Notes under the pieces: generated by a model
Told to the model about the DNA's origin: nothing
Database searches by the model: none
Seen by the model: the letters and a program-made list of their open reading frames with translations, nothing else
Program-made: the position numbers and the translations under genes
Part shown: positions 13,123-37,439 of the stretch, piece after piece
Layout of the letters: each line of letters starts with the position of its first letter
Numbering within the stretch: position 1 is the stretch's first letter
Assembly (NCBI GenBank): GCA_945901045.1
Contig: CAMDKK010000039.1
Coordinates: 1 to 37,439, forward strand
Source: Limnohabitans sp. Rim8
Lineage (GTDB): Bacteria > Pseudomonadota > Gammaproteobacteria > Burkholderiales > Burkholderiaceae_C
Length of the DNA: 37,439 bases
Direction of reading: 5' to 3'

Positions 13123-13126
13123 GATT

Positions 13127-14074
13127 TCAGGCTTTCTGCATCAAGACTTCGAGTTTGACGGCGTCGGCACAAAAGGCGCGAATGCCTTCGGACAATTTTT
13201 CGGTGGCCATCGCGTCTTCGTTGAGTGCCAGACGGAAAGACGCTTCGTTGTAAGCCACGGCCGGTAAATCCAAGGCCTGTGCAGTTTGGGCGTCCAAGGC
13301 GGGCCCCAAGGGCGTCTCGGTGGCAGCCAGTTGCGCCAGCAAATCGGGGCTGATGGTCAACAAATCACAGCCTGCCAGTGCGGTGATCTGCCCGACATTG
13401 CGAAACGAAGCACCCATGACTTCGGTGGTGATGCCGTGTTTTTTATAGTGGTTGAAAATCGCACGCACCGAACACACGCCCGGATCGTTGGCGCCCGATT
13501 GCGCCGACTCGTCCCAAGCAGCCCCTGCGCTCTTTTTGTGCCAGTCATAAATGCGGCCGACAAAAGGCGAGATCAACTGCACCTGGGCTTGACCACAGGC
13601 CACCGCTTGGCAAAAAGCAAACAACAAGGTCAGATTGGTGTGGATGCCTTCGCGCTCCAACTCGGCTGCGGCTTGAATGCCTTCCCAAGTCGCCGCAATT
13701 TTGATCAATACCCGATCACGGGCGATGCCCTGGGCTGCATACAGCGAGATGAGGCGCCTTGCGCGTGCCGTGCTCGCAGCCGTATCAAAACTCAAACGGG
13801 CGTCGACTTCAGTCGACACGCGACCCGGAATGGTCTTGAGAATTTCACACCCAAAACGCACCAGCAAGTGGTCCATCACCACGTCCAGCGGCTCACCACG
13901 GTGCTCGGCAACGGCTTGCGTGAGCAAGGGCAGGTATTCTGGTTTTTGTACCGCTTTCAAGATCAAGGACGGGTTGGTCGTTGCATCTTGCGGCTGGAAT
14001 TGGGCCAGTTGTTTGAAATCACCGGTATCGGCCACCACGGTGGTGAATTGTTTGAGCGCGTCGAGTTGGTTCAT
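13127..14074 (-). CDS. tal: Transaldolase
   Basis: Pentose-phosphate pathway enzyme moving a dihydroxyacetone unit between sugar phosphates. 315 residues from the ATG at 14074, the normal length for class I transaldolase; the longer open frame to 14128 is spacer. Motifs include [12 protein letters not shown] (30-41), the Schiff-base lysine K125 in [13 protein letters not shown], and [12 protein letters not shown]. It is divergent from zwf across an 83-base region, forming one sugar-phosphate locus with zwf, hexR and pgi. Shared HexR control is plausible. Confidence 0.97.
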
Positions 14075-14116
14075 GCGTATTTTCCGAATTAACACTTGAA
14101 TTATCAATGAAACAAA

Positions 14117-14146
14117 GTTACATTTCAAATGAAATTTCTATGTAAC
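14117..14146. promoter_or_regulatory. Inverted repeats in the tal-zwf divergent promoter, candidate HexR operator
   Basis: GTTACAT (14117-14123) pairs with ATGTAAC (14140-14146). Nested inside is ATTTCA-AA-TGAAAT (14122-14135). Both dyads lie in the 83 bases between two divergently transcribed sugar genes, and hexR is encoded immediately after zwf. HexR operators in other proteobacteria are AT-rich palindromes with TGTA/TACA ends, which the outer repeat resembles. The assignment to HexR is inference. Confidence 0.55.
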
Positions 14147-14157
14147 TAAAGAACAAA

Positions 14158-15621
14158 ATGGCTTTTGACCTCGTTTTTTTTGGCGGTACAGGCGACCTCG
14201 TTTGGCGCAAACTCATGCCCGCCCTGTTTCAAGCTTACCGACATGACACCCTTCCTGAAGGGGGTCGCATCATTGGCGTGGGCCGCGACGACCTGAGCGA
14301 CGAACAGTACCGTCAGCAAATTCAAATGCGTTTCGAACAGGTCGACGGTGCCAAACGCCCCAACAGTGAAGAGTTTGCCCGCTTTGCCAGCCTGCTGTGC
14401 TACGTGCGCATGGACCTGACCAACCCCGAAGCCTACGCCAAGCTGAAAACACGCTTGTCCGAGCGTGAAGCCAACAGCGTGGTGATGTACCTGTCCACCG
14501 CGCCCAGCCTGTTCACCACCGTGTGCGAGCAACTCGCCGCCAGCGGTCTGAACACGCCTCAAACACGCATTGTGCTGGAAAAACCACTGGGACACGACTT
14601 GGCCTCCAATCGTGCCATCAATGAGGCGGTGGGCAAAGTGTTCAAAGAGCAACAAATTTTTCGCATCGACCATTACCTGGGCAAACCTGCGGTGCAAAAC
14701 CTGTTTGCCATGCGTTTTGGCAATGCCTTGTTCGAGCCCTTGTGGCGGCGTGAGCACATTGCCAACATCCAAATCACCATGTCCGAAGAACTGGGCGTGG
14801 AAAAACGCGGTGCCTTTTATGAAACCACTGGCGCACTGCGCGACATGGTGCAAAACCACGCCTTGCAACTGCTGTGCGCCATCGCCATGGAGCCGCCCAT
14901 CAATGCCCATGCGGATGCCATACGCGATGAAAAGCTCAAGGTGCTGCGCTCTCTCAAACGCTGGACCCCTGAAACCTTGAATCAGCACGTCATCCGCGGC
15001 CAGTATGCACCGGGCATCATCGATGGCAAACCCGTGCCCGCTTACTGCGAAGAGGCAGGCGTCCATCCTGACAGCAGCACCGAAACATTTGTCGCCCTGC
15101 GCACAGAAATCGCCAACTGGCGTTGGGCCGGCGTGCCTTTTTACATCCGCACTGGCAAGCGCATGGCGTCCCACGAGGCGCACATTCACATCAATTTCCG
15201 CAGCACTCCGCATGAGATTTTCAAAAACCCGGCCGGTCAGTTCAACACCTTGGTGATTCACCTGCAACCCAAAGATGGACTGGAATTGCATTTGTTTGCA
15301 CAAGACCAAAGTAAGCGCAACCAAGCAGGCAGCAACAACGCCTTGAGCCCGGTTCACTTGGACTTGGACTTTGACAAACGATTTGGCAGCCAGCGCGTAG
15401 GTGCTTACGAGCGCTTGTTATTGGATGTATTGGGCGGCCGCCTGAATCTGTTTGTACGAAGCGATGAACAAGAAGAGGCCTGGCGCTGGGTTGAGCCCAT
15501 CTTGCACCATTGGCGCTTTGACGCCCTAGGTCCACGCCCTTATGGCGCAGGCACTTGGGGCCCGAGCGCGGCCAGTGCAATGATTGCGCGTGACGGCTTT
15601 TGCTGGAGCGAAGAAACCTGA
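14158..15621 (+). CDS. zwf: Glucose-6-phosphate 1-dehydrogenase
   Basis: Oxidises glucose 6-phosphate to 6-phosphogluconolactone with NADP+ (or NAD+), feeding the pentose-phosphate or Entner-Doudoroff routes. 487 residues, the usual length. Visible motifs are the dinucleotide-binding FFGGTGDL (7-14), EKPLG (141-145) and the active-site signature RIDHYLGK (169-176). The start at 14158 has only a weak RBS (AAAGAAC). It is followed 18 bases later by hexR, so repressor and enzyme are cotranscribed. Confidence 0.98.
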   Translation: MAFDLVFFGGTGDLVWRKLMPALFQAYRHDTLPEGGRIIGVGRDDLSDEQYRQQIQMRFEQVDGAKRPNSEEFARFASLLCYVRMDLTNPEAYAKLKTRLSEREANSVVMYLSTAPSLFTTVCEQLAASGLNTPQTRIVLEKPLGHDLASNRAINEAVGKVFKEQQIFRIDHYLGKPAVQNLFAMRFGNALFEPLWRREHIANIQITMSEELGVEKRGAFYETTGALRDMVQNHALQLLCAIAMEPPINAHADAIRDEKLKVLRSLKRWTPETLNQHVIRGQYAPGIIDGKPVPAYCEEAGVHPDSSTETFVALRTEIANWRWAGVPFYIRTGKRMASHEAHIHINFRSTPHEIFKNPAGQFNTLVIHLQPKDGLELHLFAQDQSKRNQAGSNNALSPVHLDLDFDKRFGSQRVGAYERLLLDVLGGRLNLFVRSDEQEEAWRWVEPILHHWRFDALGPRPYGAGTWGPSAASAMIARDGFCWSEET

Positions 15622-15639
15622 TTTTTTAGGAAACACGAC

Positions 15640-16485
15640 ATGCTAGAACGTATCAAAGCCTCCCTGCCCTCTTTGGCGCCGGCCGAGCAACGTGTGGGCA
15701 AGCTCGTTTTGGAAGATCCCCGTGCCTTTGCCAAGTTGCCTGTGACAGAACTGGCCCACCGCGCAAACGTGAGTAAACCCACGGTGGTGCGCTTTTGCCG
15801 CAGCGTGGGTTACGACGGCTTGTCAGACTTCAAACTCAAGTTGGCGGGCAGCGTCAGCGAGGGCGTGCCCTTTATTCACCGCAGTGTGGATGTGGATGAC
15901 AAAACCAGTGACGTCGCTGTCAAGGTAATCGACAACACCGTGGCGGCCTTTTTGAAGTACCGCAACGACGCCAGTTTTTTTGCCCTCGATCGCGCAGCGA
16001 CTGCGCTGGCCGAGACCCATGGCCATGGCCGCCGGATCGAGTTCTACGGCGTCGGCAACTCCGGCATCGTGGCGCAAGACGCACAGCACAAATTTTTCAG
16101 ATTGGGTCTGAACACCATTGCCTACAGCGACGGGCACATGCAAGTCATGAGCGCATCGATGTTGCAACCCGGCGATTGTGTGGTGATCATTTCCAACTCC
16201 GGGCGCACGCGTGATTTGATGGACGCCTGCGACATTGCACGCAAGCAGGGCGCCACCACCTTGGTCATCACCTGCAGCGGCTCACCCTTGGCCAGTGCCG
16301 GACACATTCACCTGAGCGCCGACCACCCCGAGGGTTATGACAAATACAGCCCCATGGTCTCGCGCCTGTTGCACCTGCTGATCATCGACATTCTGGCCAC
16401 CACCGTGGCGCTGCGCATGGGCGAGCGTTTGCAACCCCTGCTGCGCGAAATGAAAAATAATTTGCGCAGCAAGCGCTACACCTGA
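15640..16485 (+). CDS. hexR: RpiR/HexR-family transcriptional regulator
   Basis: 281 residues: an N-terminal RpiR-type helix-turn-helix (about 1-78, with TELAHRANVSKPTVVRFCRSVGY) and a C-terminal SIS sugar-phosphate-binding domain (about 125-260, with EFYGVGNSG and ISNSGRTRDLM). HexR regulates zwf, edd-eda and related genes and in known cases senses 2-keto-3-deoxy-6-phosphogluconate. Its position after zwf and the dyads in the tal-zwf spacer support this. RBS AGGA lies 8 bases upstream. No convincing terminator follows in the 214 bases before hipA. Confidence 0.9.
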   Translation: MLERIKASLPSLAPAEQRVGKLVLEDPRAFAKLPVTELAHRANVSKPTVVRFCRSVGYDGLSDFKLKLAGSVSEGVPFIHRSVDVDDKTSDVAVKVIDNTVAAFLKYRNDASFFALDRAATALAETHGHGRRIEFYGVGNSGIVAQDAQHKFFRLGLNTIAYSDGHMQVMSASMLQPGDCVVIISNSGRTRDLMDACDIARKQGATTLVITCSGSPLASAGHIHLSADHPEGYDKYSPMVSRLLHLLIIDILATTVALRMGERLQPLLREMKNNLRSKRYT

Positions 16486-16699: not shown

Positions 16700-17953
16700 T
16701 CAATGCATCAACTGATCTCGTTGCCGCGCAATGGTCTGGAGAAGCTGTTGCCGTGTTGTCGCGCGCAGGTCAAAACCACGGGCGCTGTCTGGCCAAAGGT
16801 CAACGGCTTGCAGCATCTCGTCGACGCGCCGACTGGCCCATCGGCTATCGAGTCCGCCTTGCTGGGCCAGCATCACCCAGTGCTGACGACGAATGGTTTT
16901 GCCTTCGCCGCACAAGTCCATTTGGTGCTCGCCGCACAAGTCCATTTGGTGCTCGCCGCCAGGGCCTTCGCTGAAGGTGAGGTCGAAACACGGGGCCAGG
17001 TGCCATTGCCTTTGGGCGTCGAGTCGGTAGGCAAAGTTTTTAGGATGGTCATCACGGTTGTGAGTCAGCACATTGAATACGGCACGCTCAAAGGCCTTTT
17101 GAACTTCTCGTTCATCTTGCGTGATCAGGCGTGTGGCGCGCAGCAGCGTGGTGTAGTCCACTGCTGAGGGGATTCTGAAATCGGCATGCAGCAAACCAGC
17201 GAGTGAGTGAACCGGTACCCGCAAAGGGCCTGACACATCAAAACGCGCAATCCCAAAGGCGGCCGCGTGTGGCCCCAGATCAAAATAATGTGTCTCAGGT
17301 ACTTCCAGGCCACACATTTGGGCCCATTGGGCGTAAATAGCCTCGATAGCGCAGACTTCTGGGCTCTCACCAGGTGCCTGAAACTTCACTAACCAGGCCG
17401 ACCCCGCTTCAAAAGGGGCGCTGCTGATGCGTGCAGTGGCTTTATCGTAATAAACCAAGACCTTGGGCCGAGCTCCTTGGGGGGATCCGCCCAGCAAAGC
17501 CATTTGGAGCAAGGCTTCAGATTCTTGACCCGAATAAATCAATGCGGATTGGTGCGCTAATTCATGCAGATCTATGGATTCTGCAAGCGAGTCCTGTTGC
17601 GTGGCCGGCTCGAAGGTGAGTGCCCCCATACCCCGTTGCCCGATGAAACTGAGACGATCAAGTGGTGAACATTGCGCAGGGTTGACACCCTGTTTGCGAA
17701 AAAGTCGGTCCATCAGCAGCATGCCCCAGCCATCGGGTAAAGCGTCGGCGATGAGCCCGGGTAGACGCAATAGATGTGCGGGGAATCCGCCAAATGCCGC
17801 TCGCTGAAGCGGCAGATGACGCGGCGACAATTCAAGGCCTTGCGCCAACGCAGCATCAGAATATTCAAATAACAAGCTTTGGCCATCGTCCGCCAAGGTG
17901 CCCAAAGGCCAATCCTCACCCCATCCCTTGTAGTGAACCCGTACTTTTTTCAT
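16700..17953 (-). CDS. hipA: HipA-family serine/threonine kinase toxin with internal duplication
   Basis: 417 residues. The C-terminal kinase core has HNRDDHPKNF (298-307), containing the catalytic Asp and metal-binding Asn, and PCFDLT (321-326) with the second acidic residue D324. The Gly-rich stretch LLGGSPQGARPK (153-164) corresponds to the P-loop-like region. HipA kinases arrest growth by phosphorylating tRNA synthetases or other clients; this one's target is unknown. A 24-base exact-type duplication gives GEHQMDLC twice (333-348), in a surface-loop region after the DFD-like motif. The start overlaps hipB by four bases (ATGA). Confidence 0.9.
   Translation of the reverse strand: MKKVRVHYKGWGEDWPLGTLADDGQSLLFEYSDAALAQGLELSPRHLPLQRAAFGGFPAHLLRLPGLIADALPDGWGMLLMDRLFRKQGVNPAQCSPLDRLSFIGQRGMGALTFEPATQQDSLAESIDLHELAHQSALIYSGQESEALLQMALLGGSPQGARPKVLVYYDKATARISSAPFEAGSAWLVKFQAPGESPEVCAIEAIYAQWAQMCGLEVPETHYFDLGPHAAAFGIARFDVSGPLRVPVHSLAGLLHADFRIPSAVDYTTLLRATRLITQDEREVQKAFERAVFNVLTHNRDDHPKNFAYRLDAQRQWHLAPCFDLTFSEGPGGEHQMDLCGEHQMDLCGEGKTIRRQHWVMLAQQGGLDSRWASRRVDEMLQAVDLWPDSARGFDLRATTRQQLLQTIARQRDQLMH
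16907..16954. repeat. 24-bp direct tandem duplication inside hipA
   Basis: Two adjacent 24-base units (16907-16930 and 16931-16954) are identical base for base and each encodes GEHQMDLC on the minus strand. The duplication is in frame and keeps the gene open. Perfect identity suggests a recent event. Confidence 0.95.
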
Positions 17954-26811: not shown

Positions 26812-27570
26812 TCAAGGTTTTGTCACGGATTGCAGCAATTGCACGTTTCCGTACCAGGCGCGCGTGTGGGTGCGGGTGTTGTCGCTGTCTGTCATCAGCC
26901 CTATCGCGACCAAGGGTCCGGGCGCTTCACCAAAGGCTTTCTCAAAATCAGTCCGAATGTCTCGCTCGTAGTTCCGCCAGCGCTGGAGTTGATGGGGGCC
27001 AGATTCGACCACGATTTTTTGAATTCGATCGGTGCGCGGATTGACAATAACCGACTCAACAGGGCGTTGATTGCACCACACATACATCAAGGTGGCGTAA
27101 GGCATTTCTTCATGGGTCAGCGTGCGGACCAGCTCGTTGAGCATGGCGTTACGCGCTGAAAATTTGGAGCGATCGCCTTCAAAAGCCAGCACCAGTCGAA
27201 CCGGCGAATCATCTGCCTCGCGCACGCCCATGTCTGCACCTGCAATCAACTCGGGCACGAACCAAGAAAATTTCAAGGCGCCCAATTGGTCTGCGGGCAC
27301 ATGCACCGATTGCCGCAACATGCTCACAGCAGAGTGCGCATCGGCTTGTATGCCTTCTCGGCCTTGGCGCTTTGCCAATTGGTACTGGGTGGGGTTTTTG
27401 CCTGGGAATGGCACCGCAAGCCAGGTCAGTTGTTGCTCGGGCGTCCAAGTCCGAAAGGCTTGGGGGCTTGGCAAATGCAGCGCATCAGCGCGCATGGGGC
27501 TGCTGGGCTGCGTTGCACAACCGGCCATCAGCCCTACGCAAATGAGCAGCAGCATCCAACGGAATTTCAT
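26812..27570 (-). CDS. DUF3047 family lipoprotein
   Basis: 252 residues from the ATG at 27570, which gives a lipoprotein signal MKFRWMLLLICVGLMAGC with lipobox LMAGC and Cys18. An upstream start at 27612 would overlap the preceding gene and spoil the signal. Conserved DUF3047 features include FSWFVPELI, GADMGVREADDSPVRL, LAFEGDRSKFSARN, ATLMYVWCNQRPVE, NPRTDRIQKIVVESG and the C-terminal IGLMTDSDNTRTHTRAWYGN. The family has no established function. It sits between the peptide operon and the Gfo/Idh/MocA gene (26-base gap), all on the minus strand. Confidence 0.85.
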   Translation of the reverse strand: MKFRWMLLLICVGLMAGCATQPSSPMRADALHLPSPQAFRTWTPEQQLTWLAVPFPGKNPTQYQLAKRQGREGIQADAHSAVSMLRQSVHVPADQLGALKFSWFVPELIAGADMGVREADDSPVRLVLAFEGDRSKFSARNAMLNELVRTLTHEEMPYATLMYVWCNQRPVESVIVNPRTDRIQKIVVESGPHQLQRWRNYERDIRTDFEKAFGEAPGPLVAIGLMTDSDNTRTHTRAWYGNVQLLQSVTKP

Positions 27571-27596
27571 ATCAATGAAGAACATGCCTGTTTCTA

Positions 27597-28730
27597 CTAC
27601 AACAATGCCCAAGGGCCTTGGGTCAAGTCCACAACTTCGCCGGTTTTTGCAGAATGTTCTGCGGCCAAGCCAATGACGACTGCAGACAAACCATCCGACA
27701 AACTCACTTCAACTGCAGCGAGACCTTGCACCACCGACAAGAATTTTTGATGCTGATAAAAGGTCGATCCATTGTGATCGCCTGCTGCCAACAAGTGAGG
27801 GTCAACCGGAATGTCCAGCGTATGCGGTCCTGCAGGGTTTCGCGGACTGACGATCAATTGCGCCACGGGTGGTTCGCCCAAAGTGTCAGCCGGCCAAAAG
27901 CGCGTGGGGCCGGGCACCTTGCACTCGATCTTGCCAAGGGGGCCCACCACGCAAATTTCTTCTTGATAGCGTGAGCCTTGTGCAAACATGCACAGCTCTA
28001 AAAGTGCGCGGCGGCCGCCTGGAAAGTCCAGCACCACCATGGCGTTGTCCAGAATATCGGGTATGCCGTCGGGGTAAGACTCGTGAACATGGTTGTGATT
28101 TTGACCGCCTGAAGCAAACAATCGAATCGGGTCGGCTTGCATGAGCAAGCGCATCAGGTCAAAAAAGTGACAGCACTTTTCGACCAGCGTGCCGCCGGTG
28201 TTTTTGTTGAAGCGATTCCAGTCGCCTACCTTTTCCAAAAACGGATACCGGTGCTCGCGTATCGACAGCATCACCGCCGAGCCCGTGGCACTTTGCGCAT
28301 GCACTTGCTTGATCAACTCAGCGATGGGCGGCATGTAGCGGTACTCCATGGCGGTCCAAATGGGCTGGCTGTATTGAAGAGCCATTTCGCGCAAACGGGC
28401 CACAGAAGCCAAATCGGTACAGGCTGGTTTTTCAACCAAGATGGGCAAGGGGCGGCGCGCCGCAATCGCCAGCAGTTGATCGGCGTGGCAGAAATTGGGG
28501 CTGGTGATGACCAAGGCGTCCACATCGCCAGCGTCGATCAAAGCAGCCATGCTGCCCACAGCGCGTGCACCAGGCGCCAGCGCCAGTGCAGCCGCCAACA
28601 TGCTTGCATCGGGCTCGTAAATGGCGACTGCTTTGGCTTGCGGCAGCAAGGCCATGTTGCGCAAATGCTCTTGGCCCATCATGCCGCATCCGAGCATGCC
28701 ATAGTGCATGGTTTTACCTGTCTGGTTCAT
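27597..28730 (-). CDS. Gfo/Idh/MocA family protein, possible NAD-dependent sulfoquinovosidase
   Basis: 377 residues with an N-terminal Rossmann fold (YGMLGCGMMGQEH, 10-22) and the EKP motif (100-102, K101). The second motif reads GGTLVEKCCHFFD (179-191) with H188 and D191 in place of the usual GG-L-D-G-H--D, an E-K-C-C variant. The family contains sugar dehydrogenases and NAD-dependent glycosidases that work by transient oxidation. It follows the GntR gene and is divergent from a sulfoquinovose-type oxidative operon. NAD-dependent sulfoquinovosidases (GH188) have this fold and occur in clusters lacking a GH31 enzyme, as here. The alternative is an ordinary sugar dehydrogenase. Start codons at 28730 and 28709 are both possible. 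Confidence 0.8.
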   Translation of the reverse strand: MNQTGKTMHYGMLGCGMMGQEHLRNMALLPQAKAVAIYEPDASMLAAALALAPGARAVGSMAALIDAGDVDALVITSPNFCHADQLLAIAARRPLPILVEKPACTDLASVARLREMALQYSQPIWTAMEYRYMPPIAELIKQVHAQSATGSAVMLSIREHRYPFLEKVGDWNRFNKNTGGTLVEKCCHFFDLMRLLMQADPIRLFASGGQNHNHVHESYPDGIPDILDNAMVVLDFPGGRRALLELCMFAQGSRYQEEICVVGPLGKIECKVPGPTRFWPADTLGEPPVAQLIVSPRNPAGPHTLDIPVDPHLLAAGDHNGSTFYQHQKFLSVVQGLAAVEVSLSDGLSAVVIGLAAEHSAKTGEVVDLTQGPWALL

Positions 28731-28758: not shown

Positions 28759-29505
28759 TCAAGACCATCGGGCCATGTAATGCGCCAAACGGGTGTCGAC
28801 CCAAGTCGTTGAAAATTCTTCGAGCGGACCGTTGCTGCTCCAGGCTTTGCGTTCGATCTTGCAGCAGGTTTGCCCCGGTCTGAGTTGGAACTGCGCAGGC
28901 GCCCAATCAGGGACTTCGCCCACTTTCAGTCTGTCCTCGGCATGCGATATCCAAAAGCCCAGTTCGGTTTCGTAAAAATGGTAAAGCGCTTCGTCCAATT
29001 GCGCCATGGTCAAGCCTTCACGGTGTCTCGCGTCAAACCAGATTTCTTCGACCGCCACAGGCGATGAATCCAGAAAACGCAAGCGCCTGACCCGGTAGCA
29101 AGAGGGTGTTAAGCCATTTCCAAAGGCAGGTATGGCTGCAGGCTTTCGGACTTTTTTGAGCTCGATGAGCAAAGCTGATGGCAAGCCACCCCCACCTTCG
29201 AGTTCGAGCCTGAAAAATTCATAGATGTTGCGCGCCGAGGCATCGACTTGCTTGCGACCGCGCACATAGGTGCCGGAGCCTTGTTTGCGTTCCAGCATGC
29301 CGCGAGATTCCAGCAAGGCCAAGGCTTTGCGCAAGGTGCCTACAGAAGCCCTCAAATGGACCGCCAACTCGGCTTCGGGTGGCAACCGCTCACCGGCCTG
29401 GTAGTGGCCTGCTCCAATCCCGCGCGCCAACACCTCCGCCAACCGCAAAAAAAGCGGCAACGATTTGGCGGGCGTCAATTGAGGGGCATCAGGTGAAATA
29501 GGCAT
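28759..29505 (-). CDS. GntR family transcriptional regulator, HutC/UTRA type
   Basis: 248 residues: a winged helix-turn-helix (about 15-80, with GERLPPEAELAVHLRASVG and LESRGMLERKQGSGTYV) and a UTRA ligand-binding domain (about 95-245). The ATG at 29505 is chosen because AAGGAC lies at good distance; the TTG at 29511 is too close to it. It is divergent from the monooxygenase operon with 79 bases between them, and a palindrome covers that operon's expected start site. It is therefore the likely local repressor, released by a sugar-like ligand. Confidence 0.92.
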   Translation of the reverse strand: MPISPDAPQLTPAKSLPLFLRLAEVLARGIGAGHYQAGERLPPEAELAVHLRASVGTLRKALALLESRGMLERKQGSGTYVRGRKQVDASARNIYEFFRLELEGGGGLPSALLIELKKVRKPAAIPAFGNGLTPSCYRVRRLRFLDSSPVAVEEIWFDARHREGLTMAQLDEALYHFYETELGFWISHAEDRLKVGEVPDWAPAQFQLRPGQTCCKIERKAWSSNGPLEEFSTTWVDTRLAHYMARWS

Positions 29506-29544
29506 TGACAAAGTCCTTCACTATTCCTACATTAGTTTGAACTA
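29505..29544 (+). promoter_or_regulatory. Promoter and candidate GntR operator of the monooxygenase operon
   Basis: TTGACA (29505-29510) and TACATT (29528-29533) are 17 bases apart, a strong sigma70-type promoter; its -35 touches the gntR start codon. The palindrome TAGTTTGAACTA (29533-29544, arms TAGTT/AACTA) begins at the end of the -10 and covers the expected start point, the classic place for a repressor site. Binding there would also affect gntR itself. Confidence 0.65.
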
Positions 29545-29584
29545 TAGCAAAGACTGCTAAAAAATTTCATGCTAAGGATCGATT

Positions 29585-30739
29585 GTGTCTGTTGTACCCG
29601 TTAAAAGCCAGCACCTTGACAGCGCCGAGATCGCGTGGTTCGCACCGCTGTGTTCAGATGATTACAGGCATTTAGGTGTACCCGAAGGCGACTTGCGAAG
29701 CAGTTGGGAAAACACGCGTGACATTGCCTTGGCGGCCGACCAACTGGGTTACCGCAATATCTTGTGCCCCTCGTCTTACCAAGTGGGTCAGGACACGATG
29801 AGCTTTGTGGCGGCCATGGCCCCTTTGACCGAACGCATGAATTTTTTGGCGGCCATTCGCTGCGGTGAAGTTCAGCCCATCATGCTGGCACGTTCAGTGG
29901 CCACGCTCGACCACATGCTCAAGGGACGCTTGATCTTGAATGTGATTTCGTCCGACTTCCCCGGTGAAACGGCCACCAACGAATACCGCTACCGCCGCTC
30001 CAAAGAGGTTGTCGAGATTCTCAAGCAGGCCTGGACGCAGGACACGATCAATTACCAAGGTGAAATTTACAACTTTCAGAATTTGTCCACCGATCCGATC
30101 AAGCCTTATCAAAAAGGCGGGCCCCTGTTGTATTTCGGTGGGTATTCGCCTGAGGCCGTTGATTTGTGCGCCGCCCATTGCGATGTGTACCTGATGTGGC
30201 CTGAAAAAGAAGAAGAATTGGCAAACCGCATGCGAACCGTGCACGCCCGTGCAACGCACTACAACCGTGTGATCGACTACGGCCTGCGTATTCACATGAT
30301 CGTGCGCGATACCGAAAATGAAGCCCAAGAATACGCCGAAGAGCTGGTCTCCAAGTTGGACGACGACGTCGGTCGAAAAATACGCGAGCGAGCACAGGAC
30401 GCCAAAAATTTTGGTGTCTCCATTCAGACCCAAAACCTGGCCCTCGCTGATGAACATGGGTATGTGGAGCCGCATGTATGGACCGGTGTTGGCCGCGCAC
30501 GCTCAGGCTGCGGGGCCGCGCTGGTGGGCAGCGTTGATCAGGTCCTGAGCAAGATCGAGGCCTATCAGAAAATGGGTATTCGGGCTTTCATTTTTTCGGG
30601 TTATCCTCATTTAGATGAGTGCCGTATTTTTGGTGAAAAAGTACTGCCCCATCTCAAAACCTGCTCCCTGCCCCACGCCTATGGCCGCGTGCCTGAGCAA
30701 ACCCCTGCCACCCCACTAGGACAAGGAGTCCGTCGTTGA
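29585..30739 (+). CDS. LLM-class FMNH2-dependent monooxygenase, SsuD-like; probable sulfoquinovose monooxygenase (SmoC-like)
   Basis: 384 residues starting at GTG 29585 after AAGGATC. The bacterial-luciferase-type fold closely resembles alkanesulfonate monooxygenase SsuD. Likely counterparts of SsuD active-site residues are W205 (YLMWPE), R235 and H237 (LRIHMIV), an Arg in GRARSGCGAALVG (304/306) and Y340 (FSGYPHLDE). Such enzymes use reduced flavin and O2 to cleave C-S bonds of sulfonates, releasing sulfite and an aldehyde. Clustered with an aldo-keto reductase, a flavin reductase and a sugar importer, it fits the SQ monooxygenase of the sulfo-SMO pathway better than SsuD of sulfur-starvation operons, which carry a nitrate/taurine-type importer. 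Substrate identity is inference. Confidence 0.85.
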   Translation: MSVVPVKSQHLDSAEIAWFAPLCSDDYRHLGVPEGDLRSSWENTRDIALAADQLGYRNILCPSSYQVGQDTMSFVAAMAPLTERMNFLAAIRCGEVQPIMLARSVATLDHMLKGRLILNVISSDFPGETATNEYRYRRSKEVVEILKQAWTQDTINYQGEIYNFQNLSTDPIKPYQKGGPLLYFGGYSPEAVDLCAAHCDVYLMWPEKEEELANRMRTVHARATHYNRVIDYGLRIHMIVRDTENEAQEYAEELVSKLDDDVGRKIRERAQDAKNFGVSIQTQNLALADEHGYVEPHVWTGVGRARSGCGAALVGSVDQVLSKIEAYQKMGIRAFIFSGYPHLDECRIFGEKVLPHLKTCSLPHAYGRVPEQTPATPLGQGVRR

Positions 30740-31641
30740 TCCCCACTATTGCATTTCACAAGAACTTGTCACCTTTCAGTGCCTTGGTTTATGGCGCTTG
30801 GCGCATGGCCGATGGCAGCGATACCTCTGCGCAAACGGCATTGAAAAAAATCAAGCTCTGTCTGGACTTGGGCATCACCACCTTTGACCATGCTGATATT
30901 TACGGGGATTACCGCTGCGAGGCCTTGTTCGGTGAGGCCTTGAAGTTGGACCCCGGTCTCAAGCACAAGATGCAAATCGTGAGCAAGTGCGGCATCAAGT
31001 TGATCTCGTCCCAATACCCTGCCAGAAGTGTCAAACATTACGACACGAGTGCGGCGCACATCCGGTATTCAGTCGACAACTCGCTTCAGCGCTTGGGCGT
31101 TGAGCGTCTGGACGCTTTGCTGATTCACCGTCCTGACCCGTTCATGAACGCCCACGAAACAGGCGCCTGTTTGGACGCGCTGGTCAAGGAAGGCAAAATC
31201 GCTGCAGCGGGTGTGTCGAATTTTTCAGTGACCGATTTTGATGTGCTGCAGTCCGCCATGCAAACGCCGCTGGTGACCAACCAGCTGGAGTTGAGCTTGC
31301 TGGCCCAGCATGCTTTTTTGGACGGTTCGGTGAGTCAGTGTCAGCAACACCAGATCCGGCCTATGGCCTGGTCACCCTTGGGCGGTGGGCGCTTGTTTAG
31401 TAATGAAACTGCTGCACTGCGCCTGCGCCCAGCCTTGCAGCGCTTGGCTCAAGAACACGCCGTGGACGTGGACGCGGTCGCGATTGCCTGGCTGCTGGCC
31501 CATCCGGCCGGCATCGTGCCCGTTGTAGGCACCAACAATTTGGACCGCATGGCCCGACTGGGTGATGCCTTGAAAGTTCGGATGGACCTGGAAACCTGGT
31601 ATGCGTTATGGACCTTGGCGGCAGGCCAGGAAGTGCCATGA
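30736..31641 (+). CDS. Aldo-keto reductase; probable 6-dehydroglucose reductase (SmoB-like)
   Basis: 301 residues; starts at TTG 30736, overlapping the monooxygenase stop as TTGA, with AAGGAG seven bases upstream. The catalytic tetrad is visible: D51 and Y56 (TTFDHADIYG), K84 (IVSKCG) and H131 (LLIHRPD). The fold ends with a C-terminal cofactor segment around GIVPVVGTNNLDRMA. In the sulfo-SMO pathway an NADPH-dependent aldo-keto reductase reduces 6-dehydroglucose, the desulfonation product, to glucose. Its coupling to the monooxygenase gene supports that reaction; a broader aldehyde reductase role remains possible. Confidence 0.88.
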   Translation: MIPTIAFHKNLSPFSALVYGAWRMADGSDTSAQTALKKIKLCLDLGITTFDHADIYGDYRCEALFGEALKLDPGLKHKMQIVSKCGIKLISSQYPARSVKHYDTSAAHIRYSVDNSLQRLGVERLDALLIHRPDPFMNAHETGACLDALVKEGKIAAAGVSNFSVTDFDVLQSAMQTPLVTNQLELSLLAQHAFLDGSVSQCQQHQIRPMAWSPLGGGRLFSNETAALRLRPALQRLAQEHAVDVDAVAIAWLLAHPAGIVPVVGTNNLDRMARLGDALKVRMDLETWYALWTLAAGQEVP

Positions 31642-32108
31642 CCATCAAGTCTGCGATGAGCCGGTTCACCACGGGCGTGACGGTGGTCACCACCCACTTC
31701 GAAGGCCAGGACTGGGGCATGACGTGCAACTCCTTCAACACCGTATCCCTTGAGCCCGCCATGGTGCTCTGGAGTATCCGAAAAGAAGCCAACAGCTACC
31801 AAGCCTTTACGCAATCTTGCACGTACTTGGTGAATGTATTGCAAGCCGACCAAAAAGACACGGCCATGCGTTTTGCGTCCGGTCCTCAGCCAGAGCGTTT
31901 TGCCAATCAGCTGACTGAACGGACAGCGCAAAAGAACCTCAGACTCAAATACACCGTCGCTTGGTTCGAGTGCCGCTTGGCGCAAGTGGTGACCGCGGGT
32001 GACCACGACATTCTGATTGGCGAAGTCACGGGTTACGGGACACAGGAAGGCCAAGGCCTGGCCTACGCTAACCGCCAGTTTGGCGTCCTGTCGGCGTTCG
32101 AAAGCTGA
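31638..32108 (+). CDS. Flavin reductase (HpaC/DIM6-NTAB family; SmoA-like)
   Basis: 156 residues from the ATG at 31638, overlapping the preceding stop (ATGA). Conserved features are the N-terminal SRFTTGVTVVTT, GMTCNSFNTVSLEPAMVLWSIR (flavin-binding region) and the C-terminal LAYANRQFGVL. Such proteins reduce free FMN with NAD(P)H and hand it to a partner monooxygenase. Encoding next to the LLM enzyme makes it the likely supplier of FMNH2. It belongs to the HpaC-like group rather than the flavodoxin-like SsuE group, another difference from ssu operons. Confidence 0.9.
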   Translation: MTIKSAMSRFTTGVTVVTTHFEGQDWGMTCNSFNTVSLEPAMVLWSIRKEANSYQAFTQSCTYLVNVLQADQKDTAMRFASGPQPERFANQLTERTAQKNLRLKYTVAWFECRLAQVVTAGDHDILIGEVTGYGTQEGQGLAYANRQFGVLSAFES

Positions 32109-32111
32109 CTC

Positions 32112-33185
32112 ATGGCCCATGTAGAACTCCAAAATGTTGTCAAAAGTTATGACGGACAGAACAAGGTTTTGCACGGCATCAACCTGACTGTTTCTGACGG
32201 ACAATTTGTTGTTCTGGTAGGGCCTTCGGGTTGCGGAAAGTCGACATTGCTGCGCATGGTGGCCGGGCTTGAAACGGTGACGCAAGGTGATATTTTGATC
32301 GATGGCGTTCGCATCAATGACCTGCCGCCTCGTGACCGCGACATTGCGATGGTTTTTCAAGACTATGCGCTCTATCCCCACAAATCTTTGTTTGAAAACA
32401 TGGCTTTTGGCTTGCGCTTGCGCAAGGAGTCCGAAGCGGTGATTCAACAGCGTGTCATGGACGCGGCCAAGTTGCTGAAAATCGAACACCTGCTGGAGCG
32501 CAAGCCTGCGGCCTTGTCGGGTGGTCAGCGTCAGCGCGTGGCCATTGGCCGCGCCATCGTGCGGCAGCCTAAAGTGTTTTTATTCGATGAGCCGCTGTCC
32601 AACCTGGATGCCCAGCTGCGCGGCGAAATGCGCGCTGAAATCAAGAAGCTGCACTTGCGCTTGGGGGCCACCATCATTTACGTGACCCATGACCAGGTCG
32701 AGGCCATGACGCTGGCCAACCAAATTGCGGTGATGCACGGCGGCCACGTGGTGCAGTACGGCTCGCCTGATCACATTTACAACCAGCCCCAAGCCTTGTT
32801 TGTGGCGGGGTTCATGGGCTCACCGGCCATGAATTTACTGAATGTTCTTTTGCACAAGCAAGAGATTCAATTGGATGGGCAAGTGCTGGCCATTCCTGCC
32901 TTGCGCCTTCAAGCCTTGTCAACCGTGCAGCATTTGAAAATGGGATTGCGTCCTGAAAAATGCCGCGTGACGCGTGATTCTGCGCAAGACATTCAGCTGC
33001 ACACCGAACTGGTTTTGCTGGAGCCCTTGGGGGCCGAAACCTTGGCTACTTTTAAAATTGGCGAGCAAGAATTGACAGCGCGTTTGCCGCCTGATTTCCA
33101 TTTGCCGCCCGGCTCGGCTTGCAATTTGTATTTTCACCCAGAGCATTTACAATTTTTCGATGCAGACAGCGGCCTGTCGCTGTAA
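32112..33185 (+). CDS. Sugar ABC transporter ATP-binding protein (UgpC/MalK type, CUT1)
   Basis: 357 residues: Walker A GPSGCGKST (37-45), Q-loop VFQDYALYPH (81-90), signature LSGGQRQR (135-142), Walker B VFLFDEP (155-161) and a C-terminal TOBE-type regulatory domain (about 235-350). The length and C-terminal domain identify the CUT1 carbohydrate/glycerol-phosphate group. It starts three bases after the flavin reductase. Together with the next three genes it completes a high-affinity importer. Aromatic sulfonate or taurine importers use a different, shorter ATPase. Confidence 0.95.
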   Translation: MAHVELQNVVKSYDGQNKVLHGINLTVSDGQFVVLVGPSGCGKSTLLRMVAGLETVTQGDILIDGVRINDLPPRDRDIAMVFQDYALYPHKSLFENMAFGLRLRKESEAVIQQRVMDAAKLLKIEHLLERKPAALSGGQRQRVAIGRAIVRQPKVFLFDEPLSNLDAQLRGEMRAEIKKLHLRLGATIIYVTHDQVEAMTLANQIAVMHGGHVVQYGSPDHIYNQPQALFVAGFMGSPAMNLLNVLLHKQEIQLDGQVLAIPALRLQALSTVQHLKMGLRPEKCRVTRDSAQDIQLHTELVLLEPLGAETLATFKIGEQELTARLPPDFHLPPGSACNLYFHPEHLQFFDADSGLSL

Positions 33186-33225
33186 TTTTTTTCAAACCCA
33201 CGTTATTTACCACTGGAGACAAACC

Positions 33226-34503
33226 ATGAAACGCAGACTTTTTGGGAATTCGATCAGCACTTTGGCTGCTGCACTTTGTATGGCTGTGGGCTTGATCAGC
33301 ATGCCAGCAGCCGCAGACACCAAGCTGCGCGTTTTTTCGGGCGGCCAAAACCAACGCCCTGATTTGATGCGCAAACTGTTTGACAGTTACCAGGCCAAAA
33401 ACCCGGGCGTCACCATCGACATTGAAACCGGCGGTGCCACCAGCGAGCTGCAGCGCCAGTACCTGAGCACGGTGCTCAATGCCAAAGACACGGCGATCGA
33501 TATCTACATGATTGACATCGTCAACCCCTCCCAGTATTTCAATGCCGGTTGGTTAGAACCACTGGACAATTATGTCGGCGGTGCGCAAGCGCTCAAGCCT
33601 TATTTGCCCGTGTACTCGCAAGCCAATTTGGTCAATGGCAAAGTGGCCGCCATGCCCGCCTTTGCGGATGCCATGTTCATGTACTACCGCAAAGATTTGT
33701 TGGAAAAGCACGGCATCAAGGAACCCAAAACCTGGGATGAGCTGGCTGCTTCGGCCAAAAAAGTGCTGGACGCTGAAAAGAACCCCAATCTGCAAGGCTT
33801 GAGCATTCAGGGCGCGCCCATCGAAGGTGCGGTCTGCACTTTCTTGCTGCCTTACTGGAGCCAAGGCAAGCAGTTCAATGATGCCGCAGGCAAGTTGACG
33901 CTGGACAAAGACACCGCAGTCAAGGGTCTGGACATGTGGTTGAAATTGGTCGACAGCGGTGTCATGAAAAAGAACATCGCCGAAGTGACCACGCCCATCA
34001 CCGTCAACGAATTCAAAGCCGGACAGGTGCTGTTTGCCATCAACTGGGGCTTTGCCTGGGACGTCTTCAAGGACGCTGCGGACAGCCAAGTCAAAGGCAA
34101 AGTGGGTGTGATGCCTCTGCCGGCCATGGCCGGTGGCAAGAGCGCCACCTGCGTGGGCGGCTGGCAATGGGCTGTGAGTGCTTTCAGCAAGAACAAGCAA
34201 GCCGCCGCTGATCTCGTCAAGTTCATGAGCACACCGGAGACCAGCAAGTTCTTGGCGGTTGAGGGTTCGCTGTTGCCGGTCTTCCAAAGCGTCTACAACG
34301 ACGCGGCTGTGCTCAAGCAAGCCCCTTGGTTCAAAGACGCGGCCAACGTGATCGTTGCCGGTCAAGCGCGTCCGATCAGCAGCCAATACGGCCAAGTCAG
34401 CGACGTGGTCCGCACCAACACCAATGCGGCACTGGCCCGCACCAAGACGCCAGCCGAAGCTGTGGCTGACATTGACAGCCGTTTGACACGGGTTATGCGC
34501 TGA
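33226..34503 (+). CDS. Extracellular sugar-binding protein, family 1 (candidate SQ/SQ-glycerol binder)
   Basis: 425 residues from the ATG at 33226 with GGAG upstream; the longer frame from 33160 is spacer. A signal peptide (about 1-31, ending PAAA) precedes the SBP_bac_1 fold, which contains AAMPAFADAMFMYYRKDLLEKHG and a WDELAASAKKV segment. It is periplasmic, without lipobox. In sulfo-SMO clusters the counterpart (SmoF) binds sulfoquinovosyl glycerol; here the ligand is inferred from context. It is the only gene of the operon with a longer (40-base) leader, which may allow extra expression. Confidence 0.93.
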   Translation: MKRRLFGNSISTLAAALCMAVGLISMPAAADTKLRVFSGGQNQRPDLMRKLFDSYQAKNPGVTIDIETGGATSELQRQYLSTVLNAKDTAIDIYMIDIVNPSQYFNAGWLEPLDNYVGGAQALKPYLPVYSQANLVNGKVAAMPAFADAMFMYYRKDLLEKHGIKEPKTWDELAASAKKVLDAEKNPNLQGLSIQGAPIEGAVCTFLLPYWSQGKQFNDAAGKLTLDKDTAVKGLDMWLKLVDSGVMKKNIAEVTTPITVNEFKAGQVLFAINWGFAWDVFKDAADSQVKGKVGVMPLPAMAGGKSATCVGGWQWAVSAFSKNKQAAADLVKFMSTPETSKFLAVEGSLLPVFQSVYNDAAVLKQAPWFKDAANVIVAGQARPISSQYGQVSDVVRTNTNAALARTKTPAEAVADIDSRLTRVMR

Positions 34504-34507
34504 ACTG

Positions 34508-35392
34508 ATGACCTCTTGGCGCGACCCCTCTGAGAAAACGCTGGCGCTGCTGCTGCTGGCACCCGCGTTTTTTCTGATCGCTTTGATTGTCATTTACCCG
34601 GTGGGTAAGTTGATCTACACCAGCCTGTTTGACATGCAATTGAGCGGCGGGGCGCGTGCGCTCGATTTTGTAGGTTTGCGTAATTTCGAAGAAGCCCTGA
34701 AGGACAAAGAGTTTTGGCATGCTGCGCGCAACACCTTGCTGATCACCGTGGTCACCGTACCGGGGGCCTTGGTGGTGGGCTTGGGTCTGGCCCTGTTGGC
34801 CAATTTGCCTTTCCGCTACAAGTGGGTGGTGCGTTTGTCCTTGTTGCTGCCTTGGGCCTTGCCGCTGAGTTTTTGCGGTTTGATTTTTGCCTGGTTCTTC
34901 CACACCGATTACGGCATCGTGAACGATGTGTTGCGCATGCTGGGCGCCCCTGAGCCGACCATGTGGTTGCTCAATCCCACTTGGGCCATGACCGCCATCT
35001 GCCTGACGATCATCTGGAAAACCAGCTCCTTCATGGCCCTCATTTTGTTGGCTGGACTGCAAATGATTCCGCGCTCTTTGTATGAAGCTGCGCAGGTGGA
35101 TGGCGCCACCCGGTGGCAACAATTTTGGCAAGTCACTTTGCCTTTGCTGGTGCCCAGCATTGTGGTTGCGCTGATTTTCAGGACCTTGACCGCTTTGCAA
35201 ACCTTCGACATTCCCTACACCATGACCAAAGGTGGCCCGGGCAGCAGCACCGAGACCTTGGCCATGCTGATTCACAAAACCACCATTGATTACCTGGACT
35301 TGGGTTACGGTTCAGCCCTGGCGGTGTTCATGTTTCTGATGTCTATGCTGGTCACAGCGGTCTATTTGCGGCAAATCGGAAAGCAAGCATGA
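34508..35392 (+). CDS. Sugar ABC transporter permease (MalF/UgpA type)
   Basis: 294 residues with six predicted membrane helices, the first at about 13-35 (LALLLLAPAFFLIALIVIYP). The EAA loop reads LYEAAQVDGATRWQQFWQVTLP near residue 195. It starts four bases after the binding-protein stop and overlaps the next permease by four bases, so all importer parts are cotranslated. It pairs with the MalG-type permease to form the channel. Confidence 0.95.
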   Translation: MTSWRDPSEKTLALLLLAPAFFLIALIVIYPVGKLIYTSLFDMQLSGGARALDFVGLRNFEEALKDKEFWHAARNTLLITVVTVPGALVVGLGLALLANLPFRYKWVVRLSLLLPWALPLSFCGLIFAWFFHTDYGIVNDVLRMLGAPEPTMWLLNPTWAMTAICLTIIWKTSSFMALILLAGLQMIPRSLYEAAQVDGATRWQQFWQVTLPLLVPSIVVALIFRTLTALQTFDIPYTMTKGGPGSSTETLAMLIHKTTIDYLDLGYGSALAVFMFLMSMLVTAVYLRQIGKQA

Positions 35393-36216
35393 ATCTGTGG
35401 ACCTCTGCCCGCTTGCGCTTGTTTGCGGCTGTCTGGATTGTCTTTAACGGTGTGTTTCCGGTCTTGTGGATTCTGTTCACATCCCTCAAGCCCGAAGCCG
35501 AGTTGGTGCAAAAGCCCATCACCTGGTGGCCACACAGCCCCACGCTGGTGCACTATCAGCATGCGTTCACCGAGCAACCTTTGTTGCATTACCTGGGCAA
35601 CAGCCTGATTGTGGCGAGTTTGTCAACGGTGCTGTCTTTGATCGTGGCCACGGGTGCCGCGTACGCCATTGCACGCCTTAATTTACGCTACCGCCAGTGG
35701 ATTTTGACGGCCATTGTGGCCTCGAGCATGTTCCCCTTGATTGCGCTGTTGGTGCCTATTTTTGAGATCATGCGCAGCCTCGGGCTGCTCAACACCTATA
35801 CCGCCTTGATACTGCCCTACACGGTGCTGAACTTGCCTGTTTGTACCTTGGTGTTGGTCAGTTTTTTCCAGAGCATTCCACGTGACCTTGAAAATGCGGC
35901 CATGATCGATGGTTGCTCCCGCATCGGCGCCTTGTGGCATGTGGTGATTCCCTTGGCCGCGCCGGGCGTCTTCACGGCCGGCATTTTGGCCTTTGTCAAC
36001 GCCTGGGATGAATTTTTACTGGCCCTGTCCCTCAATGCCAGCGCCGCCATGCGTACCGCGCCCGTTGGGATTGCGATGTACCAAGGGGAATACACCTTCC
36101 CGTGGCCGCTCATCAGCGCGGCCTTGATCGTGACCATCATCCCGGTGGCATTGATGATTGCGCTGTTTCAGGAGCGCGTGATTGGGGGCTTGACGCAGGG
36201 TGGCCTCAAGGGTTAA
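35389..36216 (+). CDS. Sugar ABC transporter permease (MalG/UgpE type)
   Basis: 275 residues with six predicted membrane helices. The second-permease marker EAA loop reads LENAAMIDGCSRIGALWHVVIP, and the C-terminal segment is FQERVIGGLTQGGLKG, typical of MalG-like subunits. The start overlaps the preceding permease stop (ATGA). It is the last gene of the operon. No GH31 glycosidase or sulfoglycolysis gene follows it. A perfect palindrome TCAGCTTAAGCTGA lies 33 bases after the stop, but lacks a loop and T tract. Confidence 0.95.
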   Translation: MNLWTSARLRLFAAVWIVFNGVFPVLWILFTSLKPEAELVQKPITWWPHSPTLVHYQHAFTEQPLLHYLGNSLIVASLSTVLSLIVATGAAYAIARLNLRYRQWILTAIVASSMFPLIALLVPIFEIMRSLGLLNTYTALILPYTVLNLPVCTLVLVSFFQSIPRDLENAAMIDGCSRIGALWHVVIPLAAPGVFTAGILAFVNAWDEFLLALSLNASAAMRTAPVGIAMYQGEYTFPWPLISAALIVTIIPVALMIALFQERVIGGLTQGGLKG

Positions 36217-36254: not shown

Positions 36255-36578
36255 TTAAGCTGAAGAGTCACTCAGATCGGCAAAATTGCTGATCCTCACA
36301 ACACCATCCGGGAATCGCGCGACCACCTCTAATTGCCCAGCCATCGCTTCGATGTGACTTCGCAGAGTTGAGATGTAAATGTCCGTGCGCCGCTCCATTT
36401 TGGCGATGGATGGTTGCTGAACATGAAGTACATCAGCCAGCATCTTTTGTGAAAGGCCACGCGCTTGTCGCAACTCGTTAAGCGGCATTTCGTCAAGCAT
36501 CCTCCGGGCCTTAGCCTCAGCACGTGTCAGAGACTGGGGCGACATTTGTTGCCGTGGTACTGCAAATTTGTTAGCCAT
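36255..36578 (-). CDS. higA: HigA-like XRE-family antitoxin
   Basis: 107 residues with a central helix-turn-helix (about 34-62: NELRQARGLSQKMLADVLHV, then QPSIAKMERRTD) and a C-terminal strand-rich part (GQLEVVARFPDGVVRISNF) typical of antitoxins that follow RelE/HigB toxins. It appears intact: all key parts are present at normal length. Its ATG overlaps the ancestral toxin stop by eight bases. The upstream toxin gene is broken, so this is now an orphan antitoxin. Confidence 0.88.
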   Translation of the reverse strand: MANKFAVPRQQMSPQSLTRAEAKARRMLDEMPLNELRQARGLSQKMLADVLHVQQPSIAKMERRTDIYISTLRSHIEAMAGQLEVVARFPDGVVRISNFADLSDSSA

Positions 36579-36936
36579 TGATCAGCCCTTCCTTTCGAAG
36601 TTGCTCTCAGTGTTCATCGTAAAGTTCGTCAGCAACAGGAATATGCATGTCATAACAGCGGCTGTCTCCGGTTTTGTCGCCACCGATCAACAGAATGGCT
36701 GAACGCCGTGGATCAAACGCGTACAAAGTTCGAAACGGCCGTCCCTCGTGCTGAGTCCGCAATTCACGCATATGTGTGTGTCTAGAACCGTTGATCCCGC
36801 TACTGTGCGGAAAGCCCAAATTCGGACCTCGATTTTCCAGCAGTCGCACCAATGCATCCAACGACTCCTGCTCGCCCTCTGACAAACCTGCCCACCATTC
36901 GCCAAAGTCATCTGTCTATTCAACGTCCCAAGTCAT
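36571..36936 (-). pseudogene. higB: higB-like (RelE superfamily) toxin gene with two in-frame stops
   Basis: In one continuous frame from ATG 36936 to TAA 36571 the translation reads MTWDVE, then TAG (36916-36918, codon 7), TDDFGEWWAGLSEGEQE and onward for about 100 residues to YDEH, then TGA (36607-36609, codon 110), then EQLRKEGLING and TAA. Both flanks of each stop match the normal HigB/RelE toxin plan, including the terminal overlap with the antitoxin ATG, so these are nonsense changes rather than frameshifts. A TTG at 36885 could restart translation, giving a 92-residue product lacking the first strand and helix. Mostly likely inactive. Confidence 0.85.
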
Positions 36937-36993
36937 GTTGGCCAGAATACCCTTCATGGAATATTTCTTCAATCCGTGATGGCTGGGATCCAG

Positions 36994-37439
36994 GCCGCCT
37001 TCGTTTTGGTATTTCATCTCCGACACGACGCCCAGGGCCTGGCAGAAGTCTTCCTGATGGATGCGCACCAAGCACTCATCATTGCCCGCCTGACGGTCAT
37101 ACCGTGCAACCAGCAAGATGCGGCGTGATCTACAGAGAAAATTTGCGTCGGGCTGTGGGTAGCCCCAAGGCCTTTGCCAGGGTCATACAGAAGCCTTCGT
37201 TGAGCACGCTATGTTGCACCGCCAAGATGGCGGTTTTGAGAATGTGTGTACTCGGCTGGCAGCCTTGAGGCAAGCCGATACACTGGCCATCGAAGAGCAC
37301 CGGCAATTTGTCTTGGGCACCTGCCAGTGACAAGCGAATTCCCTCTCGTCCAGCCAGCATGGGGCGGTGGGGCAACTCATCCAGCACGGCTTCAAGCTGT
37401 TGCTCGCCCAACCATTGCACGCCTGACTTTTCGGTGGTC
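36994..37439 (-). pseudogene. hipA: Degraded hipA-like kinase gene, frameshifted and truncated, runs off the edge
   Basis: From the right edge the frame encodes a HipA-type segment with LSLAGAQDKLPV, GCQPSTHILK and ALGLPTARRKFSL, then stops at 37130. The next conserved piece, ILLVARYDRQ, RIHQEDFCQALG and MKYQNEGG, continues in another frame from about 37142, so a frameshift lies near 37129-37142. Homology ends abruptly at about 36994 before the kinase catalytic motif, and the DNA passes into the region before higB. The missing C-terminal half indicates a deletion. The upstream part lies outside the window. Confidence 0.8.

Follow-up and report, generated by a model that had tools for sequence, protein, structure and literature searches.

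The stretch considered here raises the question of which substrate a compact set of monooxygenase, reductase and sugar importer genes serves, and how these genes are switched on. The DNA is the 37,439-nucleotide contig CAMDKK010000039.1 of Limnohabitans sp. Rim8 (assembly GCA_945901045.1), hereafter the window, which is contig C39 of a 4.0-Mb genome of 126 contigs that is 94% complete. A preliminary description had proposed a sulfoquinovose (SQ) monooxygenase (sulfo-SMO) gene cluster at 28759 to 36216, and this interpretation is supported by the clade of the monooxygenase and by partners of the SmoB, SmoF and GH188 types. The locus is very probably an SQ-utilisation locus of the sulfo-SMO type with its own glycosidase, since the monooxygenase belongs to the SmoC clade, the sugar receptor matches SmoF, and a glycoside hydrolase family 188 (GH188) gene is its neighbour in a genome where no GH31 match was found. 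We stop short of full confidence because the solved proteins 7oh2 (from Agrobacterium) and 7olf, here taken as SmoC, and 7bby and 7bbz, taken as SmoB, bear other titles in the PDB. In kind, the locus appears to be an ordinary sulfo-SMO cluster, and the signature of its regulon is the part that deserves a bench test.

The eight genes named in the preliminary description are all present, open and in the families stated (Table 1). The distances at the six forward-strand junctions are those of a single transcription unit. The stops and starts said to overlap do so at three of them (by 4 bp each at smoC/smoB, smoB/flavin reductase and permease/permease), whereas the other three are short gaps of 3 bp (flavin reductase/ATPase), 40 bp (ATPase/receptor) and 4 bp (receptor/permease). 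The most likely starts are 31638 for the flavin reductase, in an ATGA overlap, and 33226 for the receptor. That one promoter serves all these genes is plausible: the best sigma-70-like match in the stretch (TTGACA-17-TACATT, 29505-29533, forward strand) lies mostly within the 73-bp gap between gntR and smoC, but the stretch holds seven such matches against 4.1 (standard deviation 1.9) expected. No RNA family matched within the window at gathering scores.

Table 1. Features of the putative sulfo-SMO locus, in window coordinates
Feature	Position	Strand	Basis or remark
GH188 (SqgA-like) NAD+-dependent sulfoquinovosidase (predicted), Gfo/Idh/MocA fold, 377 aa	27597..28730	-	phmmer, contact residues
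GntR/UTRA (HutC-type) regulator, divergent from smoC	28759..29511	-	Pfam; start TTG 29511 or ATG 29505
Candidate operator, degenerate tandem-repeat copy	29513..29533	+	motif from 49 gaps; 12.4 bits
SmoC-like FMNH2-dependent SQ monooxygenase (predicted), 384 aa, GTG start	29585..30739	+	phmmer, tree
SmoB-like aldo-keto reductase, 301 aa, TTG start overlapping smoC stop	30736..31641	+	phmmer, Pfam
HpaC-like flavin reductase (putative SmoA role), 156 aa from coupled ATG	31638..32108	+	Pfam
CUT1 ABC importer ATPase (UgpC/MalK type)	32112..33185	+	NCBIfam, Pfam
SmoF-like sulfoquinovosyl-glycerol binding protein (predicted), 425 aa	33226..34503	+	phmmer
CUT1 importer permease 1	34508..35392	+	Pfam BPD_transp_1 6.3e-21
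CUT1 importer permease 2	35389..36216	+	Pfam BPD_transp_1 5.9e-17

The gaps between gntR and smoC share a conserved motif, a tandem direct repeat with an 11-bp step (TTSATNYACT-ATTSATNYACA). We collected 65 such gaps, each shorter than 450 bp and flanked by neighbouring gntR and smoC matches, and dropped 16 near-duplicates. The 49 non-redundant gaps gave a 24-bp motif of 26.8 bits, against 8.3 to 8.6 bits in three shuffled sets (single-base shuffles, with three restarts against six for the real set). Because the motif search assigns a single site to every region, all 49 gaps have a site by construction, and some of these are weak. The half-sites covary: in 22 hand-picked distinct sites they agree at 56 of 66 letters, whereas shuffling gives 45.5 on average and reaches this level in 3 of 5000 trials, a comparison that is indicative only. 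The window copy stands in the expected place, inside the predicted -35/-10 region of smoC, where it overlaps the -10, and next to the gntR start, and is identical in the closest relative, locus L016 (compared loci carry L numbers, genomes G numbers). A site of at least 12 bits precedes smoC in 20 of 20 further same-genus loci, drawn from 23 other genomes with SmoC. A palindrome, TAGTTTGAACTA, was also considered as the operator and was rejected in favour of the shared repeat, as it is found in the window only and is missing from L016. A scan for GTnnnnAC turned up no common site.

The motif recurs where pathway genes have moved away from smoC. In nine of nine loci with a detached importer ATPase gene, the best site lies 41 to 57 bp upstream of it, with scores from -2.2 to 14.0; the control fractions, 0.0007 to 0.077, are conservative, as the control windows come from the same loci and may hold real sites, and the pooled p of 1.3e-13 overstates independence because the loci are related. 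The new element described here is this conserved repeat in the gntR-smoC gap, together with its recurrence at the detached importer and at unlinked gntR and flavin reductase genes; in the open-licence literature searched, we found no description of a sulfo-SMO operator or regulator.

The best candidate reader of the site, judged by sequence and co-occurrence, is the GntR protein, whose GntR (3.9e-16) and UTRA (2.4e-17) Pfam domains confirm the divergent regulator named in the preliminary description. Of 90 same-genus genomes, 23 carry a gntR ortholog (E up to 1e-30); all of these belong to the 24 with SmoC (E up to 1e-100), and none to the 66 without it. The sole SmoC genome lacking the ortholog is G623, which is 77% complete. 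Loci L017, L018 and L019 have no gntR beside smoC, yet retain the motif before smoC, and in all three genomes a gntR ortholog elsewhere is oriented divergently to a flavin reductase gene, the space between the two holding the motif (22.6 to 27.2 bits). In G615, gntR stands beside a GH188 gene, distant from smoC, with two motif copies nearby. These unlinked regulators, placed with the motif beside the flavin reductase and GH188 genes, tie both genes to the pathway.

The repeat might instead belong to a promoter or be bound by a different regulator, not by GntR. The position of the window copy across the predicted -35 and -10 elements would suit such a reading, as would the motif that L017 to L019 keep before smoC without an adjacent gntR. 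We nevertheless regard it as unlikely, because those genomes have the ortholog back to back with a flavin reductase gene, the motif lying between, because regulator and pathway occur together in 23 of 24 genomes against 0 of 66, and because the half-sites change together in the hand-picked set. We lean towards the view that, in alpha-, beta- and gamma-proteobacteria alike, sulfo-SMO genes answer to a dedicated GntR/UTRA protein, provisionally "SmoR", whose operator is a tandem direct repeat of 11 bp. This fixed pairing of regulator and operator may let the importer, the glycosidase and even the flavin reductase be exchanged or relocated within one regulon.

Several observations temper our preference for SmoR. 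GntR proteins mostly bind palindromes, so that a tandem direct repeat is unusual for them. The window copy is weak, at a score (12.4 bits) for which 3.3 chance matches per Mb are expected, and the family locus L107 has no site above 11 bits. The ATPase sites of L152 and L154 are unremarkable against AT-matched controls (fractions 0.06 and 0.08). The motif precedes a detached GH188 gene in only one of five loci (12.8 bits), five of the six such genes having been examined and the sixth, in L154, standing at the end of its stretch. Before the alternative receptor, a strong site is present in one of five loci (19.9, L103), with weak ones of 6.1 and 4.5 and two absent. Finally, the unlinked gntR ortholog of G676 appears as two fragments in separate reading frames.

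The SQ assignment draws in part on the importer. Its ATPase scores 475.9 bits against the NCBIfam UgpC subfamily (cut-off 432) and has the Pfam domains ABC_tran and TOBE_2. The best solved match of the receptor is 7nbz (phmmer, query from 33229; 7.6e-136, the next being 5.5e-63), titled sulfoquinovosyl glycerol-binding protein SmoF, to which 203 of 387 aligned residues are identical (52%). The N-terminus looks like a signal peptide by eye. Of nine putative SQ-contact positions of SmoF, eight are identical in the receptor, and Asn replaces the ninth, His13.

The interval of the preliminary description leaves out a further member of the system, the GH188 gene, which lies 28 bp behind gntR. The solved matches of its product are 8zn9 (2.6e-148), 8qc3 (9.5e-112) and 8qc2 (9.6e-109), with the next at 2.2e-13 (phmmer). 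PMC11465081 gives 8qc2 as a GH188 structure, and PMC10755693 defines the SQ contacts. With numbering anchored on the R-L-K motif, the sulfonate triad from these sources (R166, L170 by its backbone, and K172) is fully conserved in the window protein, as are the contacts K107, Y136, E189, H193 and H321. By our count, the position of Glu163 in PMC10755693 holds Val in 8qc2 and Arg in the window protein, and a conserved Glu follows immediately after; this mismatch probably stems from the numbering. The same source describes GH188 enzymes as acting on both alpha and beta SQ glycosides and as occurring in sulfo-SMO clusters. GH31, the other of the two known sulfoquinovosidase families, gave no match in the 94%-complete genome and was rejected as the source of its sulfoquinovosidase, which leaves GH188 as the only candidate. 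The next gene behind GH188, read in the same direction, encodes a DUF3047 protein (2.2e-63) at 26812-27612 (-).

The same chemistry could serve another natural substrate, either a different 6-sulfo-sugar or a particular SQ glycoside, in place of SQ-glycerol. The modest identity of the receptor to SmoF and its Asn at the position of His13 would fit this. So would the action of GH188 on both alpha and beta SQ glycosides (PMC10755693) and the existence of further sulfosugars, such as sulfofucose, mentioned in PMC12421959. We consider it improbable, as the monooxygenase is 70% identical to 7oh2 over its whole length and the GH188 contacts to the sulfonate and the hydroxyls are unchanged.

The best solved matches for the monooxygenase are 7oh2 and 7olf (phmmer, 1.8e-189 over 383 residues), followed by 7jv3 (2.4e-65) and SsuD (1.8e-59), and 270 of 383 aligned residues are identical to 7oh2. 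We placed the protein in a tree of 59 rows of our own selection, built by a quick method with support from the Shimodaira-Hasegawa-like approximate likelihood ratio test (SH-aLRT) only. A branch with SH-aLRT 100 sets apart 30 proteobacterial SmoC rows, with the window protein and the solved proteins 7oh2 and 7olf on the same side, and 18 rows on one side of another branch (SH-aLRT 99) form the SsuD side, among them L127, which is below the SsuD cut-off and has a very long branch. The 11 Bacteroidota SmoC-like rows fall on the SmoC side. The phylogeny that the preliminary description had named as its refuting test hence groups the protein with SmoC, apart from SsuD. SsuD and MsuD are two-component enzymes using reduced flavin mononucleotide (FMNH2) and belong to the same superfamily, whereas the window protein lies in a separate clade and scores 261.3 bits against the SsuD model TIGR03565, short of its cut-off of 518.2. 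An ordinary operon for an SsuD/MsuD alkanesulfonate or other luciferase-like monooxygenase, with a sugar importer adjacent by chance, was dropped on the tree evidence and is highly improbable: the match to the SsuD model (1.2e-77) does reflect a common superfamily, but the clade is well supported, the partners are of the SmoB, SmoF and GH188 types, and nothing encoded in the genome scores above the SsuD cut-off, the SmoC-like protein being the best match there.

The best solved matches of the aldo-keto reductase (Pfam Aldo_ket_red) are 7bby and 7bbz (2.2e-98, the next being 2.1e-69; phmmer). The flavin reductase, coupled to smoB, matches Pfam Flavin_Reduct (1e-38), and no solved match of it bears the SmoA name. 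Proteins that we take by their solved counterparts to be SmoC and SmoB are therefore encoded together in the window, with a dedicated flavin reductase recognised at the level of its Pfam family. Joint encoding of SmoC and SmoB is the mark of a sulfo-SMO cluster in PMC13372026.

Some points count against a sulfo-SMO assignment. The PDB titles of 7oh2/7olf and 7bby/7bbz read alkanesulfonate monooxygenase, methanesulfonate sulfonatase and aryl-alcohol dehydrogenase, which are older annotations, and no paper in the searched open-licence literature names any of these four entries. The receptor has Asn where SmoF has His13. No Mo-co_dimer sulfite oxidase was found in the genome, other routes for sulfite lying outside that search.

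Taken together, the genes suggest the following route. The CUT1 importer, with its SmoF-like receptor, two permeases and ATPase, would take up SQ-glycerol or other SQ glycosides, and the GH188 enzyme would release SQ with nicotinamide adenine dinucleotide (NAD+) as catalytic cofactor. The flavin reductase would supply FMNH2, with which, together with O2, the SmoC-like monooxygenase would split the C-S bond to give sulfite and 6-dehydro-glucose. The SmoB-like reductase would convert the latter to glucose, to be passed on by glucokinase and the glucose-6-phosphate dehydrogenase route. Glucose does have an outlet, since glucokinase is encoded elsewhere in the genome, and pgi, transaldolase and zwf lie, with an RpiR-type regulator, at 11424-16485 of the window, roughly 11 kb away from the cluster. 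Both arms are most likely repressed by the divergent GntR/UTRA protein, bound to the tandem repeat that lies on the predicted promoter of smoC and adjoins the start of gntR, and an SQ-derived effector would release it. Such repression fits the placement of the window copy, across the predicted -10 of smoC and right against the gntR start.

Among known systems, the sulfo-SMO pathway of Agrobacterium tumefaciens (SmoA, SmoB, SmoC and the SmoF importer) has the same monooxygenase, aldo-keto reductase, flavin reductase and CUT1 importer with a SmoF-type receptor. It differs in the glycosidase, the Agrobacterium enzyme SmoI reportedly being a GH31 member, whereas that of the window is GH188 in a genome without a detected GH31. 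The GH188 SqgA sulfoquinovosidases of PMC10755693 match over the whole length and in eight of eight contacts, but come from another organism with another partner importer. Plasmids of Rhizobium sp. SL42 (L097) and Ruegeria sp. THAF33 (L098), examples of the GH188-bearing sulfo-SMO clusters of rhizobial and Roseobacter-clade bacteria, have the same core in the same orientation, with GH188 behind GntR and GntR divergent from SmoC-SmoB-flavin reductase, and the same intergenic motif, but an annotated TRAP transporter replaces the CUT1 importer. The suggestion that the gene order and the GntR regulator make an undescribed variant is not borne out: these plasmids share the core, and a 2026 review places sulfo-SMO mainly in alpha- and beta-proteobacteria (PMC12890257). 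PMC13372026 describes the pathway as widespread in aquatic genomes. The cluster itself is thus not new in kind: publications already describe the pathway, its occurrence in beta-proteobacteria and GH188 as one of its parts.

SmoC is patchily distributed. At E up to 1e-100, it occurs in 8 of 200 genomes sampled from the family and in 24 of the 90 from the genus, the window's own genome included in both counts, and in 1 of 399 genomes of an order-wide sample, that one being the window's own. The same-genus proteins comprise six at 88-100% identity and 18 at 72-76%. Among the 80 of 120 relatives retained for the locus, the closest named relatives of the SmoC are Comamonadaceae, in keeping with the betaproteobacterial host of the preliminary description. 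When estuary and mangrove samples were incubated with 13C-sulfoquinovose, the label reached Comamonadaceae (PMC13372026), for which section 20 of the paper gives no pathway. With about a quarter of the genus genomes carrying SmoC, the sulfo-SMO route is an obvious candidate. The conserved site could also help to locate pathway parts distant from smoC, and would allow the induction of SQ use to be tested directly at the bench.

Across the gene maps, the SmoC-SmoB-flavin reductase core and the regulator are fairly steady, and the importer is variable. The maps omit matches covering less than 50%, 40% or 30% of the query, depending on the map, and show nothing at or below 28% identity (26% in the map of unlinked gntR loci). 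L137 and L016 probably represent one record, and L101-L107 are the same clusters as L009-L015, hence not independent. The full compact order of the window also occurs in L016/L137, L139 and L141, with L140 ending at a contig edge, and L107 has this order without a detected flavin reductase. The SmoC of L138 is 89% alike, yet no importer stands beside the flavin reductase. GH188 and CUT1 genes form a separate convergent set in L142, L145, L151, L152, L154 and in L021 (Rhodoferax). A different CUT1 importer accompanies a GH31 gene in L103-L106, L144 and L156 (L105 being incomplete), window-type CUT1 genes lie beside GH31 in L143 and L147, and L148, L149, L150 and L155 have no CUT1 set within the stretch. 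L017 and L019 show a reduced layout, in which GH188 faces SmoC-SmoB across the motif and the regulator and flavin reductase are elsewhere in the genome. Among 52 named alphaproteobacterial loci, some with incomplete stretches, 44 have TRAP genes, 49 GH188, 50 gntR and none a SmoF-type receptor.

The GH31 genes beside sulfo-SMO cores (L103:9479-11575, L104:13928-15961, L106:12783-14810, L144:4732-6723, L156:11790-13829 and L147:16379-18400) keep the catalytic Asp pair D405 and D472. The YihQ residues Q262, Q288, W304 and Y508 are missing in all six, and R301 is kept in one of six; these enzymes are thus probably not classical sulfoquinovosidases. In L103, the motif lies 10 bp before the first gene of the GH31 operon.

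SmoC-like proteins of about 50-63% identity also occur in Bacteroidota, in metagenome-assembled genomes (L076, L077 and L079-L095) and on plasmids of Emticicia (L099) and Spirosoma (L100). No GH188 or gntR was detected near these loci, several of which are on short contigs, and a SmoB-like gene is present in 9 of the 19 loci from metagenome-assembled genomes. The Spirosoma plasmid has an annotated SoxC-type sulfite dehydrogenase and SusC/D genes at its SmoC-like locus.

A HipA-like kinase is encoded in the window at 16700-17953 (-; HipA_C 1.3e-40), and a second HipA-like reading at 36916-37420 (-), seen by eye only, is split over two open reading frames and possibly broken. Behind the importer operon lie a helix-turn-helix protein (Pfam HTH_37 and HTH_3) and a small open reading frame that looks RelE/HigB-type by eye (36255-36578 and 36607-36885, both -), a possible toxin-antitoxin pair.

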